A program made the position numbers and the translations under genes. Shown piece by piece: positions 545-39,317 of a stretch of 64,000 nt of DNA. A model generated the notes under the pieces. The model was not told the DNA's origin, searched no databases, and was given only the letters and a program-made list of their open reading frames with translations. Positions within the stretch are counted from its first letter, which is position 1; each line of letters starts with the position of its first letter. The DNA comes from Veillonella intestinalis (GTDB taxonomy: Bacteria; Bacillota; Negativicutes; Veillonellales; Veillonellaceae), in the NCBI RefSeq assembly GCF_943193155.1, contig NZ_CALPDB010000005.1, positions 1 through 64,000 on the forward strand, in the 5' to 3' direction.

Positions 545-620
545 TGGTGACTCACCCGCGACTCGAACGCGGGACACCCTGATTAAAAGTCAGGTGCTCT
601 GCCAACTGAGCTAGTGAGTC
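545..620 (-). tRNA. tRNA-Lys (TTT)
   Basis: A complete 76-nt cloverleaf with encoded CCA. The acceptor pairs GACTCAC with GTGAGTC, the T-loop reads GTTCGAGTC, and the anticodon loop is CTTTTAA with anticodon TTT. It is the third gene of a His-Gln-Lys cluster. Confidence 0.97.
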
Positions 621-624
621 ATGT

Positions 625-699
625 TGGCAGGGGCGGCTGGGTTCGAACCAGCGCATAATGGAGTCAAAGTCCATTGCCTTACCACTTGGCGACGCCCCT
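625..699 (-). tRNA. tRNA-Gln (TTG)
   Basis: A 75-nt tRNA with encoded CCA. Acceptor AGGGGCG pairs with CGCCCCT, the T-loop is GTTCGAACC, and the anticodon stem TGGA/TCCA encloses CTTTGAC, giving anticodon TTG. Only four bases separate it from tRNA-Lys. Confidence 0.97.
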
Positions 700-707
700 A
701 TAAAAAG

Positions 708-784
708 TGGGGTGAGTAGTGGGGATCGAACCCACGCATAACGGAGCCACAATCCGCCGTGTTAACCGCTTCACCATACCCACC
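708..784 (-). tRNA. tRNA-His (GTG)
   Basis: A 77-nt tRNA including the extra 5' G(-1) paired with C73 that histidyl-tRNA synthetase recognises, and an encoded CCA. The anticodon loop is ATTGTGG with anticodon GTG. It is the first gene of the His-Gln-Lys cluster. Confidence 0.96.
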
Positions 785-32208: not shown

Positions 32209-33537
32209 TTATAAGTGGAACAAACCTAACATAGCACCACAAGCTAACGAAATCAAGGACATGATAAACAAACGTGGAGCACAGAATTTCAACATATCTT
32301 TAATTTCAATACCAGCTAAACCACAAGCTAAGAATGTAGTCGCTGCATGAGGCGTTACTAATACACCATAGTTTTTAGAAATCAACATAGCCATAGCCAT
32401 ATCTTGAGGATTTACACCAAATTTTTCACCTACACTAATAGCCAATGGAACAAGACCAAAGAAGTAGGAGTCAGTGCCAAGCAACATACCAATTGGTACC
32501 CCAAGAATACCAAAGATAGTTTGTAAATGACCACCCAAGAAATCTGGTACTAAGGTAATTAACATAGATGCCATGTTATCCATCATTTTAGTACCGCTTA
32601 ATACACCTAAGAATACGCCAGATGCTAATAAAATCATAGGCATTGTTAAGGCAGTATCAGCATGCATTTTAATAGCTTTAGATTGTGCTTTTGCACCAGG
32701 GAAGTTAACAATCAAAGCAATGGCAAGTCCGAACATGAACGCACCATAAAGCGGAATCTTAGTGAAGCAAAGTAAGCCAATAACAACTAAAGTTAACAAA
32801 CCATTGAACCATAACAATTTAGGACGTTTCATAGCTTCTAAATCTTCAGAAGTTACATTACCATCAGTTGGTACTAATGAAGAATCTAATAATGCAGCTT
32901 CACCAGTTGGGTTTAAACCAGCACCACGACGTTTTTCAACAATCCCCATATAAGCAGCAAACACAATTAAGATTACTAAGCCTACCCCTTGTAATGGAAT
33001 TAATGCTTGCCATAAAGCATTTACATCAGCGTTTAATACAACCCCTGTACGCGCTACTGGACCACCCCATGGTACCAAGTTCATGATACTCATAGCCGCA
33101 CCAATGATACATACTAAAGTTACAGGGCGAATGTGTAACTTTTTATAAATAGGAAGCATGGCAGGAATCGTAATTAACAAGGTAGATGCTAACGCGCCAT
33201 CCAAATGCCCTACTACTGCGATAAGTGCTGTAGCAATGGTAACTAACATAATATTATTGCCGGCTTTTTTAGCCAAGTAATTTACCAATGGATCAAATAG
33301 ACCAACATCACTCATCAAGGAGAAGTACACAATAGAGAATACGAATAATACCGCTGTAGACCAAGTTTTAGATACACCTGCTTGAATAAATGTAAAAATA
33401 TCTGATGGACCAAAACCAGCAATAACAGCCATGATAATAGGCACGATTACGAAAATCGGCACAGGATTTGTTTTAGATTGGATTAATGCCCATACGATGA
33501 TAACAATCATCAATAGGCCCAAAATACCTAAAAACAT
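32209..33537 (-). CDS. CitMHS-family citrate carrier
   Basis: A 442-residue polytopic membrane protein of the CitMHS family, which carries citrate together with a divalent metal and protons. About 11-12 hydrophobic segments are present. NPVPIFVIVPIIMAVIAGFGP at the N terminus and MSIMNLVPWGGPVARTG near residue 150 are family hallmarks, and GTDSYFFGLVPLA near residue 355 is the second conserved half. It lies between two terminators, downstream of the citrate lyase genes. Metal specificity cannot be read from sequence. AAGGAG precedes the ATG. Confidence 0.88.
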   Translation of the reverse strand: MFLGILGLLMIVIIVWALIQSKTNPVPIFVIVPIIMAVIAGFGPSDIFTFIQAGVSKTWSTAVLFVFSIVYFSLMSDVGLFDPLVNYLAKKAGNNIMLVTIATALIAVVGHLDGALASTLLITIPAMLPIYKKLHIRPVTLVCIIGAAMSIMNLVPWGGPVARTGVVLNADVNALWQALIPLQGVGLVILIVFAAYMGIVEKRRGAGLNPTGEAALLDSSLVPTDGNVTSEDLEAMKRPKLLWFNGLLTLVVIGLLCFTKIPLYGAFMFGLAIALIVNFPGAKAQSKAIKMHADTALTMPMILLASGVFLGVLSGTKMMDNMASMLITLVPDFLGGHLQTIFGILGVPIGMLLGTDSYFFGLVPLAISVGEKFGVNPQDMAMAMLISKNYGVLVTPHAATTFLACGLAGIEIKDMLKFCAPRLFIMSLISLACGAMLGLFHL

Positions 33538-33730: not shown

Positions 33731-35284
33731 TTAGTCTAATGGTTTGCGAACTACGTCGATAATAGAGCCGTCACGGTATTCAACGATAGCTACTACATCT
33801 TCGTCTTTATCGCTTACAGTAATACCTTCTGGTTTACCAACAAGATCAAAAGCTAATTTCTGTAACTCTTCAATTGTGTAAATTGGTAAGTTAGAATCTT
33901 TAAAGCGTTCAATCAAGTCAGTGCGACGAGGGTTAATAGCGATACCGCGTTCTGTTACAATTACGTCAACAGATTCACCTGGCGTAATAACAGTTTGAAC
34001 GCTATCTAAAATCATTGGCAAACGGCCACGTACTAATGGACAAGTAATAACTGTACATTTAGCACCAGCAGCTGTATCACTGTGACCACCAGAAGCCCCC
34101 ATAAGAACGCCATTGGAGTCAGTCATACAGTTAACATTAAAGTTTGTATCAATTTCAGTAGCACCAAGGAATACAACATCAAGGTAGTTAGTCATATTGT
34201 CAGTCCAAGGATCCGCATACATGGATGCACTCATTTCAATATGAGCAGGGTTTTTATGTAAAGAAGCAGCTGCTACTGTATCAAATGTTTGAGTATCATA
34301 AATAGCATTGATTAAACCGTCTTCTAACATACCTGCCAAAATACCAGTGGCACCACCAATACCAAAACCAGCTTTAACGCCTTGTTCTTTTAGTTTTTGG
34401 CCGATGAATTTAGCTACTGTTAAAGGTGCCCCACCAGCACCAAGCTGGAAGCTGAAACCTTCTTTAATGATGCCTGCTTGATCAAGGAATTCTGCAGCCA
34501 TTTCAGCAATTTTAATCTGTACAGGGTTTTTAGTAAAACCAACTGCACCAGAAGCAATCCCTTCTGGATCACCAATTGCTTCTACTTCAACGATGTAATC
34601 TACATCTGTTTGAGGTACAGAATAAGGATATACATAATCAACTAAGTTATCAGTAATGGCAACAGTTTTATCTGCATAATGAGAGTCAACCATAGCGTAA
34701 CCAAGAGCACCACAAGCAGATTTACCTTGCATGCCAGTAAAGTTACCACGGCGGTCACAAGTAGGTGCACCCATGAAGGCTACATCGATGTGAACTTCAC
34801 CTGCAATAATAGCACGGGCACGGCCACCATGAGAACGAATAACTACAGGACGTTTCAATACGCCTGGATTCTTCGTTAAGAATTTGCCTAGTGCATCACG
34901 AAGACCAGAAGTTTCAATAGCTGTTACTGTGCCATCTTTAATCATATCGATTAAGAATTCATGACAAGGGCTAAGAGAACTGGAAGCAACAGTAATATCT
35001 TTAATACCTTTTGCTTGAATGCGTTCCATAACCATTTTCATAACATAATCGCCATTACGGAAATGATGGTGGAAAGAAACAGTCATACCATCTTTTAAGC
35101 CAGTTTTTTCAATAGCTTCATCGATGGAAGATAATAATTTATCAGCGCCACCTTGATTATATTTAGCAACAGGACGGCCTACACGGCGTACTTTAGGCTC
35201 AATAGCGAACTCGCCTTGATATAATTCACGACCCGCAAGAGCTGGTAAATCCATTGGAATTTCGCGATTTGCTTTATTTAACAT
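33731..35284 (-). CDS. citF: Citrate lyase alpha subunit (citrate:acyl-carrier transferase)
   Basis: About 517 residues, the standard length for CitF. The alpha subunit moves citrate onto the acetylated carrier to give citryl thioester and acetate. The N-terminal part has FHHHFRNGD, and later blocks FMGAPTCDRRGNF near residue 185 and FQLGAGGAPLTVAKF near residue 285 are typical, as is the GASGGHSDTAAGAKCTVI stretch near residue 410. I start at 35284, with AAGGAG nine bases upstream. It overlaps the stop of the citD-citE fusion by 11 bases, so translation is coupled. Confidence 0.93.
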   Translation of the reverse strand: MLNKANREIPMDLPALAGRELYQGEFAIEPKVRRVGRPVAKYNQGGADKLLSSIDEAIEKTGLKDGMTVSFHHHFRNGDYVMKMVMERIQAKGIKDITVASSSLSPCHEFLIDMIKDGTVTAIETSGLRDALGKFLTKNPGVLKRPVVIRSHGGRARAIIAGEVHIDVAFMGAPTCDRRGNFTGMQGKSACGALGYAMVDSHYADKTVAITDNLVDYVYPYSVPQTDVDYIVEVEAIGDPEGIASGAVGFTKNPVQIKIAEMAAEFLDQAGIIKEGFSFQLGAGGAPLTVAKFIGQKLKEQGVKAGFGIGGATGILAGMLEDGLINAIYDTQTFDTVAAASLHKNPAHIEMSASMYADPWTDNMTNYLDVVFLGATEIDTNFNVNCMTDSNGVLMGASGGHSDTAAGAKCTVITCPLVRGRLPMILDSVQTVITPGESVDVIVTERGIAINPRRTDLIERFKDSNLPIYTIEELQKLAFDLVGKPEGITVSDKDEDVVAIVEYRDGSIIDVVRKPLD

Positions 35285-36518
35285 TAATTTCAGCTCCTTC
35301 ATCTACTTCTACTTTAATACCGGCTGCACGTGCTTTATCTACAATGCGTTGTGCACGAACTACGATAGGACCATCAATCATCTTACCGTCAACAGCAATA
35401 ACGCCTTTATTGTTTTTCAAAGCATCTGCATAGCTATTCAATACTTTAACAGAATGAGCAATTTCTTTTTCATCTGGAGTAAATACTTTGTGAGCCAATT
35501 TAATCTGACTTGGATGGATACAAGATTTACCATCGAAGCCAAGGGCCTTAATGTATTGTACTTCTTCTACGAAACCATCTAGATCTTTAACATCAGAGAA
35601 TACAGTATCTACGCAACGAATACCTGCTTCACGAGCTGCCAATAAGATAGATTGACGAGCAAATGCTAATTCAACAGCTGGTTTAGATTTACCAGTGCGA
35701 AGGTCAGCACGATAATCTTCAGCACCAAGTGCGATACCTACAACGCGAGGGCCATGGCAGATTTCACGTACATTATAAAGACCTTTAACGGATTCAATCG
35801 CTACAATAATATTAATTGTACCTTCTTCCCAACCATTAGCTTTTTCTACTTCTTCAATTTTACGAGCTACGATTTCAACTTCAGATACGTCTTCAGTTTT
35901 TGGAATACGAATCAAGTTTGGTTTAGCTGGTACAATTACATCTAAGTCATCATAGCCATATGGTGTCTGAGTTGGATGGTTAATACGAACTACTGTTTCA
36001 GAGCGGAAAGTCATGCTTTTCAAAGCTTCAGCTGTCATCAAACGAGCTGTATCTTTTTCTGTTACAGGAATGGAGTCTTCAATATCAAACATCAAGCTAT
36101 CCGCACCGTGGATATCTGCGCTATTAATCATTTTAGGCGTATTCCCAGGCACGAACATCATGCTACGAGAAATACGAGCTTTAGCAGCTTCTGATAATGG
36201 TAAATTTTTAACTTCTACGGGACGAGTTTCGTCATGAGTTACAGTAGCTTTCGGTTCAGAACCGCGTTCTAAAGCACCTAATACACGTGCTTTAATTGCA
36301 TAGTCCCAAGCGGCCTTATCATCGGCGATAACCTTTACCCCATCATAACCAGCTTCTTTTACTGTGTTCACGATTAATTCTTCAATGTGTTTACCATACT
36401 GGCGTTTTACTTTTGAAGTTAATTCAACTTCAATACCAGCTGCGATTGGCTCAACGGTTACAAGACAATCTTGTTTTTCGTCAAAACCAGCAGTCGCTGC
36501 TTTTACTAATTTGTTCAT
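35274..36518 (-). CDS. Fused citrate lyase acyl-carrier (CitD) and beta (CitE) subunits
   Basis: A 414-residue fusion. Residues 1-95 match the CitD acyl-carrier subunit, and residues about 115-414 match CitE, the lyase (HpcH/HpaI aldolase fold: MMFVPGNTPKMI, SLMFDIEDSI, VAIESVKG, GAEDYRADL with the magnesium-binding acidic residues). CitD normally carries a phosphoribosyl-dephospho-CoA on the serine of GTLESSD or similar. Here the aligned stretch is AGFDEKQD and the serine position is Lys15. The domain may thus be a structural remnant. The gene sits upstream of citF and downstream of a DASS carrier. AAAGGA precedes the ATG. Confidence 0.88.
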   Translation of the reverse strand: MNKLVKAATAGFDEKQDCLVTVEPIAAGIEVELTSKVKRQYGKHIEELIVNTVKEAGYDGVKVIADDKAAWDYAIKARVLGALERGSEPKATVTHDETRPVEVKNLPLSEAAKARISRSMMFVPGNTPKMINSADIHGADSLMFDIEDSIPVTEKDTARLMTAEALKSMTFRSETVVRINHPTQTPYGYDDLDVIVPAKPNLIRIPKTEDVSEVEIVARKIEEVEKANGWEEGTINIIVAIESVKGLYNVREICHGPRVVGIALGAEDYRADLRTGKSKPAVELAFARQSILLAAREAGIRCVDTVFSDVKDLDGFVEEVQYIKALGFDGKSCIHPSQIKLAHKVFTPDEKEIAHSVKVLNSYADALKNNKGVIAVDGKMIDGPIVVRAQRIVDKARAAGIKVEVDEGAEINVK

Positions 36519-36643: not shown

Positions 36644-38074
36644 TTATTTAATAAGGCCGATAGCAGACCAGTAACCATAACCAACGGTCATTGTTAAGAT
36701 GAAACATACGATAGCAACTAAGCCACCTACAATCCACCAAGTCTTAACATCATTAAACCCTTCACCAAAGATAATTGGTGCTGCCGCTCCGCCGTAGTGA
36801 GTTAAGGCCCCACCATAGGAGTTAGTCGCAGCTAATACAAGAGCAAGTCCCATTGGATCAACACCAGCTACTTTACCAACTGTCAAGAATACTGGTAACA
36901 TAGCTACTACATAAGCACTACCAGAAGCGAATAAATAACGAACCGCTACACTGATAAAGCCAATAACCACTAACGCAATAAATGCATTATCGCCGAAGTG
37001 AATATGTGTTTCCATGAATTTAGCTAACCATTCAAAGAATTTCACTTTACTTAACGCACTGGACATACCGATAATACCGCCGAACCAAATGAATGTGTTC
37101 CAAGCGCCATTACTTTTAAGTACATCATCCCATTTAATAACATTACATACAATGGATAAGCACATAGCCGCTACAGCTACGGCTGTCGCATTGATAGAAA
37201 GTTTAATACCAAAACCTTGATCCAAAATGGAAGGCATTGCCCAACCAAGTAAAGCTAAAACGAAAATAGCTACCAAGATTTTTTCACTTAATTTCATTGG
37301 CCCTAAATCTTCAAGACCTTGTTTAGCAATCGTATGATTGTCAATCTTAGTCAATGTAGGACGTTCAACAAGATAAGTAACAAATGGAACTACTAATAAC
37401 ATTACTAAGCCAGGAATTACCATAGCTAAGGCCCAAACACCCCAGTTGAGGTCAACTCCTAAAATTTTATTCATAAAGTCAGCTGCTAATAAGTTAGGTG
37501 CCATAGCCGTAGCAAACATGAAAGATGTTACTTTAGTAACCATATAAGTGTTAGCACTTAAGTAAGCACCTGCTTTTTTAGCAGTTTCACCTGGTTCAGA
37601 ACCAAGGGCACGAGCGGTAGCATTGATAATCGGATATACGATACCACCAGCACGAGCTGTATTCGAAGGGGTTACTGGAGAAATAATAAAATCTAAGATA
37701 GCGGTAACATAACCCAAACGCAATACAGTGGAACCAAACATACCAATCAAATGATACGCAATACGACGACCAAGACCGGTTTTAACAAATGCTACAGATA
37801 AAGCAAAGGCAGAAAATACTAACCACAATGTAGAGGATGCATATCCAGATAACACAGCGGATGTATTATTTAAGAAAATAGAAGATGCTGCAATAGATAC
37901 TAATAAAACTACAGGAGCACCCCATGGTTTAATAACTAAACCTACAATCGCTGTCAAATAAAAACCAAACAAGCGCCAAGCATTTACTTCAAGACCTTCC
38001 GGCGGTGGCATGAACCAAATAATTAACGGAATCAACGCCATAACTGCAATTTTAATTAATTTGCTGTTGTTCAT
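36644..38074 (-). CDS. DASS-family dicarboxylate/tricarboxylate carrier (CitT-like)
   Basis: A 476-residue polytopic carrier of the divalent anion:sodium symporter family, close to citrate/succinate and tartrate/succinate antiporters. The two pseudo-repeats carry the ligand motifs SPVTPSNTARAGGIVYPI near residue 135 and ATNSYGGALTHYGG near residue 405. About 12-13 membrane segments can be counted. With the lyase genes next to it, exchange of citrate for succinate or malate is plausible. AAGGAG precedes the ATG. A promoter (38177-38205) and a LysR-box-like dyad (38262-38276) lie upstream. Confidence 0.88.
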   Translation of the reverse strand: MNNSKLIKIAVMALIPLIIWFMPPPEGLEVNAWRLFGFYLTAIVGLVIKPWGAPVVLLVSIAASSIFLNNTSAVLSGYASSTLWLVFSAFALSVAFVKTGLGRRIAYHLIGMFGSTVLRLGYVTAILDFIISPVTPSNTARAGGIVYPIINATARALGSEPGETAKKAGAYLSANTYMVTKVTSFMFATAMAPNLLAADFMNKILGVDLNWGVWALAMVIPGLVMLLVVPFVTYLVERPTLTKIDNHTIAKQGLEDLGPMKLSEKILVAIFVLALLGWAMPSILDQGFGIKLSINATAVAVAAMCLSIVCNVIKWDDVLKSNGAWNTFIWFGGIIGMSSALSKVKFFEWLAKFMETHIHFGDNAFIALVVIGFISVAVRYLFASGSAYVVAMLPVFLTVGKVAGVDPMGLALVLAATNSYGGALTHYGGAAAPIIFGEGFNDVKTWWIVGGLVAIVCFILTMTVGYGYWSAIGLIK

Positions 38075-38423: not shown

Positions 38424-39317
38424 CTAAAATTCAATAGCAACCGGTGTATAATTCTTATAATGTTCACACACATAATCAATAAATGTTTTAGCCGCAATAA
38501 GCTTTGTACTTACTTCACTATACTGCAATAAAGTACTACGCATAAATGGGGTTCCATCTTTATGATAAATAGGTGCTACATGAATACCTTCATCTTTGCA
38601 AGATCCAAGTCCTAAATATGGCAAAATAGCCCAACCTAGCCCTTCACGCACAAAGTGACGACAGGTCACCATCGAATCAAGTTCCATAGCCGGTTCTAGG
38701 TTAGTCGGTAAATTTTCACTTCGCCAACTCTCTACTATTGAAGATATAGATCCATCCGTACGGTATTGAATCCAAGGTAAGGAAGATAAATCATCAATTG
38801 TTATAGGATCCTTATAAACTAAACAATAAGGCTCTTCAAATAGCTTAATAGAATTCGGGGTCTCTTTAAAATTTCCCCGCGTAATTGCGACCATTACTTC
38901 ACCGCTATTAAACATTTTATTCACATGAGAACTATAACCTGATTTTACTTGAATATGAATATGAGGATATTCTTTAGTAAATAAACTAAGCAAATGTGGT
39001 AATTGGTAATCCGCAAAATTTATAGACGAAGCAATTTTCAAAGTCCCTTGAATCTCGCCACTCATTTCACCAATGGATTGCTTTAGACTCTCAGTCTCTT
39101 CTAACATACGCCGACAATAGGCATGAAATACTTCACCTTGTGGCGTTAAGGTAATCCCTTCATTGGTACGCAATAACAATGGACAACCTAAATCTTCTTC
39201 TAAATGACGCAAACGATAACTCAAAGCAGGTTGCGATAAAAATAACTTATCAGCTGCTTTTGTAATATTCCCCTCAGCCACCACGGTAACGAAGGTTTGC
39301 CACTCTTTTTCATCCAT
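38424..39317 (-). CDS. LysR-family transcriptional regulator (citrate locus)
   Basis: A 297-residue LysR protein. The DNA-binding region contains FVTVVAEGNITKAADKLFLSQPALSYRLRHLEEDLG, the canonical helix-turn-helix, and the effector domain begins near residue 90 (LKIASSINFADYQL). It lies next to the citrate operon on the same strand and a T-N11-A dyad stands between them, so control of citrate uptake and cleavage is likely but inferred. It follows the BI-1 gene by 12 bases with AGGAGG as ribosome site. Confidence 0.9.
   Translation of the reverse strand: MDEKEWQTFVTVVAEGNITKAADKLFLSQPALSYRLRHLEEDLGCPLLLRTNEGITLTPQGEVFHAYCRRMLEETESLKQSIGEMSGEIQGTLKIASSINFADYQLPHLLSLFTKEYPHIHIQVKSGYSSHVNKMFNSGEVMVAITRGNFKETPNSIKLFEEPYCLVYKDPITIDDLSSLPWIQYRTDGSISSIVESWRSENLPTNLEPAMELDSMVTCRHFVREGLGWAILPYLGLGSCKDEGIHVAPIYHKDGTPFMRSTLLQYSEVSTKLIAAKTFIDYVCEHYKNYTPVAIEF

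Follow-up and report, generated by a model that had tools for sequence, protein, structure and literature searches.

Sequence comparisons indicate that Veillonella and some related anaerobes possess a citrate-splitting enzyme whose carrier domain has a lysine exactly at the attachment site of the usual CoA-like group. Since lysine occupies this site and genes for making and attaching the group are missing from most of the examined genomes, the lysine-type enzyme, which is a variant of the known citrate lyase, probably runs on ordinary acetyl-CoA. The prosthetic group of citrate lyase is a textbook case of a cofactor dedicated to one enzyme, for which a separate biosynthesis and a separate ligase exist; CitG and CitX make and attach it, and CitC re-acetylates it.

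The window, i.e. the whole stretch of 64,000 nucleotides from Veillonella intestinalis that was analysed, contains the locus on its minus strand, where transcription runs toward lower coordinates in the order LysR, DASS, CitD-CitE, citF and CitMHS:

38424..39317, minus strand: LysR regulator, closest among NCBIfam models to that of CcpC, a citrate-related regulator (198.5 of 400, under the cut-off)
36644..38074, minus strand: anion symporter of the DASS family, encoded upstream of the fusion (TIGR00785, 434 bits, cut-off 198.6)
35274..36518, minus strand: citD-citE fusion, 414 aa, first base read at 36518 (PF06857, TIGR01608 and TIGR01588 matches)
36249..36518, minus strand: CitD domain, residues 1-90 (PF06857, TIGR01608, MdcC fold match)
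36474..36476, minus strand: Lys15 codon, at the position of the prosthetic-group serine (profile alignment, column comparison)
36300..36302, minus strand: Tyr73 codon (column comparison of lysine-type with serine-type rows)
35313..36167, minus strand: CitE domain, residues 118-402 (catalytic E147, D148, R178, E242, D268 and D382; roles according to PMC3832036)
33731..35302, minus strand: citF, alpha subunit, CoA/ACP transferase (PF04223, 606 bits; TIGR01584, 675 bits, exceeding the equivalog cut-off of 501.45)
32209..33537, minus strand: CitMHS-type citrate:proton symporter (TIGR00784, 279.2 bits, cut-off 259.7)

The citF and fusion genes share 29 bases, and AAAGGA, a ribosome-binding-like sequence, precedes the fusion start at 36518; a promoter and terminator scan returned no more signals than were obtained in shuffled sequences. 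Elsewhere in the window (545-783), three consecutive tRNA genes (Lys, Gln, His) are located on the minus strand.

The fusion of CitD to CitE, which had been proposed in the initial annotation, is borne out on the minus strand by matches to PF06857 (residues 6-85, 71 bits, cut-off 25.1), TIGR01608 citD (69.1 bits, above the cut-off of 63.5) and TIGR01588 citE (residues 115-401, 339.7 bits, under the model's cut-off of 443.4), and the RipC_Ccl model reached 167.7 bits on the CitE domain, under its cut-off of 375. AlphaFold2 modelled the fusion with a pLDDT of 92.0 and a pTM of 0.89, and the CitD domain alone with values of 94.3 and 0.85, respectively. The annotation had further read the motif AGFDEKQD with Lys15 at the serine position; the motif is indeed A10-G-F-D-E-K15-Q-D17, and both a profile and a fold comparison pair this lysine with Ser25 of Pseudomonas MdcC. 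The profile of 48 CitD rows gave a weak E-value (0.66), but its register was exact; in the fold comparison, residues 1-87 of the CitD model fell on residues 11-97 of the MdcC chain (PDB 5vit_C), i.e. with the same ten-residue offset. MdcC was the top row of this comparison (Z 10.8, 85 residues, rmsd 2.1) by a narrow lead, with TetM next at Z 9.8 and EF-G-like domains at 9.8 and less; in a Foldseek search with the CitD model it took rank 26 (E 2.8e-3, TM 0.66). No solved CitD structure was found by sequence search. Residue 15 is the equivalent of the residue to which the prosthetic group is attached: the serine for phosphoribosyl-dephospho-CoA is missing from the CitD of the window, and Lys15 fills its column. 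According to PMC5534430, Ser25 of MdcC bears phosphoribosyl-dephospho-CoA and is located at the tip of a loop, where about 10 Å separate it from the ribose when CoA is modelled. A lysine at residue 15 would be well placed to reach a phosphate of free CoA, spanning the gap that the phosphoribosyl bridge spans in the canonical enzyme. MdcC is therefore like the window CitD in its fold, its loop and the alignment of Ser25 with residue 15, but it differs in that it retains the serine together with its own MdcB/MdcG maturation.

It is true, as had been annotated, that citC, citX and citG are missing from the locus, and this absence extends to the whole window genome (99.96% complete) except for a single CitC-family match. 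Family searches of the whole assembly, in which the E. coli control was positive, returned 0 matches for CitX and 0 for CitG, and a whole-genome search found no hidden second citD, citX or citG; the genome is thus free of the second intact citD with citX and citG that the annotation had named as a refutation. The one PF08218 (CitC family) match scored 35.3 bits in an ORF of 181 aa, and strong matches elsewhere in that search reached 211-238 bits in frames of 348-394 aa. This ORF was considered as a CitC and set aside as CoaD-like, for its short length and for what we take to be a CoaD motif.

Genome searches covered 60 genomes, 28 of which belong to the family of the window. All 28 contain both a CitD domain and CitF, and since the lysine motif was also present in each of them (27 were read directly), the lysine represents a conserved trait. 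The dN/dS of the CitD part was 0.02-0.15 in five window pairs, with dS saturated in several, and dN/dS was low in CitD, CitE and CitF alike; these codon comparisons indicate that CitD is under purifying selection. Given its presence in 28/28 family genomes and the low dN/dS, the lysine motif is not a chance occurrence. Although the annotation was right about the fusion itself, the fusion is not the key feature: the fused frame occurs in six of the 28 family genomes (G000, the window genome, and G001, G002, G003, G005 and G006), and the other 22 have a separate lysine-type CitD encoded directly upstream of citE. The lysine predates the fusion, which is the younger of the two.

CitX, CitG and a strong CitC match were found in only 2/28 family genomes (G002 and G003), and each of these also holds a separate serine-type operon with the CitD motif GTLESSD and with citC, citX and citG. 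In these sister species (loci L063 and L062, respectively), a lysine-type operon is accompanied by a complete serine-type operon of citC, citX, citD, citE, citF and citG, so that for experiments they offer the best naturally occurring pair in which the two types stand side by side. In G005, also a Veillonella genome, a second lysine-type citDEF was observed (L061, 3758-6463) that differs strongly from the first and has the motif GSENKGD; it belongs to the Acidaminococcaceae clade, has its own LysR and DASS genes and was probably acquired by transfer.

In a wider class sample of 300 genomes, PF06857 was detected in 125 and CitX in 78. The motif could be read at 69 of 77 loci, and the remaining eight, none of which came from a genome with CitX, did not match the small profile. 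Carriers read from CitX-positive genomes had serine in 48/48 cases, these rows being drawn from among the strongest matches, so that weaker carriers of the same genomes are unseen. The 21 rows from CitX-negative genomes comprised eight with lysine, six that were MdcC-like (GVTGSGD), four with serine, one GTMEPSD, one with threonine and one fragment. A search of the 300 genomes for the lysine pattern matched 39, which include the 28 family members, G049, G056 and four Pectinatus (G096, G207, G235, G269); the matches in G076, G100, G125, G144 and G287 may be due to chance, since a reversed control pattern also matched five genomes. Named genomes, among them Veillonella species, Pectinatus and Megasphaera, contributed 33 loci, of which 30 had lysine, two had serine (a Sporomusaceae bin and a Peptococcaceae bin) and one was cut off, a ratio that is biased because the scan patterns included the lysine motif. 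Finally, 27 of 374 genomes of a phylum sample contained a carrier, with lysine outside Pectinatus in G629, G343 and G499. CitX is absent from G629 and G499 and present in G343, where a further copy, of the serine type, belongs to an operon with the full citC/X/G set. The copy of G499 (L276, 4324-5598) starts with CitE and has a lysine-type CitD at its C-terminus (residues 321-401), a fusion in reverse order that is independent of the Veillonella fusion. As a side observation, ORFs of 847 and 731 aa in the serine-type operons of L221 and L240 match CitF, and their lengths would allow a CitE-CitF fusion.

A maximum-likelihood tree was built from 54 CitF rows, 22 of them of the lysine type, CitF being separate from the trait itself. 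Lysine versus non-lysine required five changes on this tree, at least four of them on supported branches, and a single clade of all 22 lysine rows was rejected (AU p = 1.6e-8); the tree does not distinguish gains from losses. The lysine rows comprise a group of Veillonella, Pectinatus and Megasphaera; a further Pectinatus copy, placed next to a Sporomusaceae copy of the serine type; a group of Acidaminococcaceae (GTANKGD, GTNSKSD, GTDKKGD and the GSENKGD extra copy of G005); G629/G343; and G499, which is located on a long branch at an unsure position. With at least four supported changes and the single lysine clade rejected, the replacement of serine by lysine appears to have happened repeatedly. 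Eighteen of the 22 lysine rows come from CitX-less genomes and four from genomes in which a serine-type copy is present as well, and none (0/22) from a genome with CitX yet without a serine-type copy. After correction for kinship, the association between lysine and CitX absence is not significant (p 0.25-0.5), since only two to three of four pairs are informative.

A strict rule that the absence of CitX means lysine had to be rejected, since serine occurs in CitX-less genomes, in the tree set in nine rows (G206, G210, G145, G247, G642, G302, G421, G634, G430). True exceptions are the f111 genomes G430 and G507, which have serine without CitX and CitG matches, and the pair G206 and G210, with no CitG match and only partial CitG-family matches, respectively. 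Other rows can be explained in part: the contig of G145 stops about 150 bases past citD and CitG is present in the genome, G247 is 63% complete, and G302, G421 and G634, together with the alanine-type G654, encode a CitE of 234-252 aa from which both the Asp that binds the metal and that of the lid are missing. The genome of the threonine-type G066 is 77% complete. Moreover, citDEF operons with such a CitE were observed at L278, L279, L282 and L283, in genomes without CitX or CitG matches. The occurrence of serine-type operons in genomes with neither CitX nor CitG means that such lineages have either dropped the group while keeping the serine or use an unrecognised maturation route. A further deviation is G170 (Sporomusaceae, GFVESND), which has serine although it is nested among lysine types.

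Columns of the three subunits were compared between 20 lysine rows and 21 serine rows, the latter from genomes with CitX or with citC at hand. CitD residue 15 was the sole column that is basic in all lysine clades (K in 20/20 versus S in 21/21), and a scan of all columns of CitE and CitF found no convergent basic column for CoA-phosphate binding. CitD column 73, a possible second marker, was aromatic in 20/20 lysine rows and Cys in 17/21 serine rows; at this residue, Tyr or Phe was always found in the lysine types read, and Tyr also in several CitX-less serine types. PMC3832036 names six CitE residues as catalytic or metal-binding, and all of them are present in the window and kept in 20/20 lysine rows. 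Where the serine types show no variation, the window retains 31/32 columns in CitE and 84/93 in CitF, and 27 and 62, respectively, are kept across all 20 lysine rows.

We consider it reasonably probable that the window locus encodes a working, ATP-independent citrate lyase without a covalent prosthetic group, which is run by CoA and in which Lys15 helps to hold the CoA; it is the use of CoA, citrate as the substrate and the role of Lys15 that we infer. CitF would move CoA from acetyl-CoA onto citrate, yielding citryl-CoA and acetate, and the CitE domain would cleave citryl-CoA into oxaloacetate and acetyl-CoA, by which acetyl-CoA is regenerated. If acetyl-CoA is used catalytically in this way, CitC, CitG and CitX are not needed, and a CoA-transferase CitF combined with a citryl-CoA lyase CitE is the simplest mechanism that requires none of the three genes. 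Isolated citrate lyase subunits can reportedly use CoA esters. The CitD domain would still serve in assembly. Its Lys15, located where the loop that once bore the group has its tip, probably contributes to holding the CoA, which would move back and forth between CitF and CitE. The absence of the attachment serine, as read in the annotation, stands, but the term scaffold understates the residue: with lysine fixed throughout the family and serine replaced several times independently, Lys15 is probably functional. More tentatively, several bacterial lineages might repeatedly have exchanged a covalent cofactor arm for an electrostatic one: the lysine would grip the phosphate of free CoA at the former place of the covalent phosphoribosyl bridge, turning the acyl carrier protein into a subunit for CoA docking and making the three enzymes of maturation dispensable.

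The canonical CitDEF of Klebsiella, E. coli and Acidaminococcus fermentans, together with CitC, CitX and CitG, shares with the window the CitD, CitE and CitF subunits, the gene order D-E-F, the CitE catalytic residues, citrate-type transporters and LysR regulators, but the window has Lys instead of the attachment serine and its genome lacks a CitX or CitG match and a plausible CitC. A. fermentans (G124), with Ser together with CitX and CitG, is a good control. In fold, the CitE domain comes closest to lyases whose substrates are free CoA esters (5ugr, Z 34.1), and malyl-CoA lyase, CLYBL and (S)-citramalyl-CoA lyase/RipC share with it both this fold and the catalytic residues. PMC3832036 describes relatives of CitE with free CoA esters as substrates. 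The window CitE probably has this use in common with malyl-CoA lyase, CLYBL and RipC, which, in contrast, act without CitD and CitF. A lysine-type or prosthetic-group-free CitDEF was not found described in the titles and abstracts listed by searches of openly licensed papers.

Speaking against the CoA-run citrate lyase are the serine rows in genomes without CitX (in f111 also without CitG), the non-significant pair test, the CitE score under its cut-off and the serine of G170. The low CitE score would also fit an operon that encodes a CoA-dependent lyase for another substrate, e.g. citramalate or another tricarboxylate, and Veillonella is known for fermenting lactate rather than citrate. In the same direction, the G108 operon is adjoined by a family-III CoA-transferase and an HMG-CoA-lyase-like gene, with ORFs similar by sequence in G155. 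We regard another substrate as unlikely, however, since a citrate-type transporter over its cut-off lies next to the window genes, CitF is over the equivalog cut-off and other lysine-type copies have fitting neighbours: PEP carboxykinase, pyruvate carboxylase and a CCS-family symporter (under its cut-off) in Megasphaera loci, and aconitase or isocitrate dehydrogenase at the G343 and G629 copies. These neighbours, with CitMHS in the window, point to citrate as the substrate, and the Acidaminococcaceae group is a separate clade that may differ in this respect. Two lysine-type loci of that group (L229, 1501-4817, and L230, 1402-4753) adjoin a family-III CoA-transferase, an HMG-CoA-lyase-like gene and an amidohydrolase (family scans: L229), which may mark a different substrate.

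Slightly less probable than another substrate is that Lys15 serves as the attachment point of another covalent group (CoA-derived, lipoyl-like or other), installed by an unrecognised enzyme, so that the carrier still swings. It is lysine specifically and no random residue that recurs at the exact attachment site, and the f111 serine-type genomes without CitX and CitG hint at an unrecognised maturation route. Nevertheless, the examined lysine-type loci have no maturation gene in common, their recurrent partners being transporters, LysR regulators and central-metabolism enzymes; CitG, which performs the known precursor step, is absent from the window genome, and the loop GF[DEN]EK[NQ]D presumably bears no resemblance to a lipoyl or biotinyl motif. 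A dead carrier in a decaying operon with Lys15 as drift, which loss of maturation genes can indeed start, is very improbable and close to refuted by conservation, given the lysine in 28/28 searched family genomes, the low dN/dS of all three subunits, the intact CitE catalytic residues in 20/20 lysine rows and the differential expression of the Veillonella dispar citrate lyase genes with growth phase reported in PMC10100942.

If the CoA-run citrate lyase is confirmed, the repeated loss of the prosthetic group through the same exchange of serine for lysine would represent a natural comparative experiment on the purpose of a covalent arm, a question that would be directly testable with small soluble proteins. 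Veillonella is a common human commensal, and its citD annotations would then be misleading, with genomes being scored as maturation-deficient though the enzyme may work.
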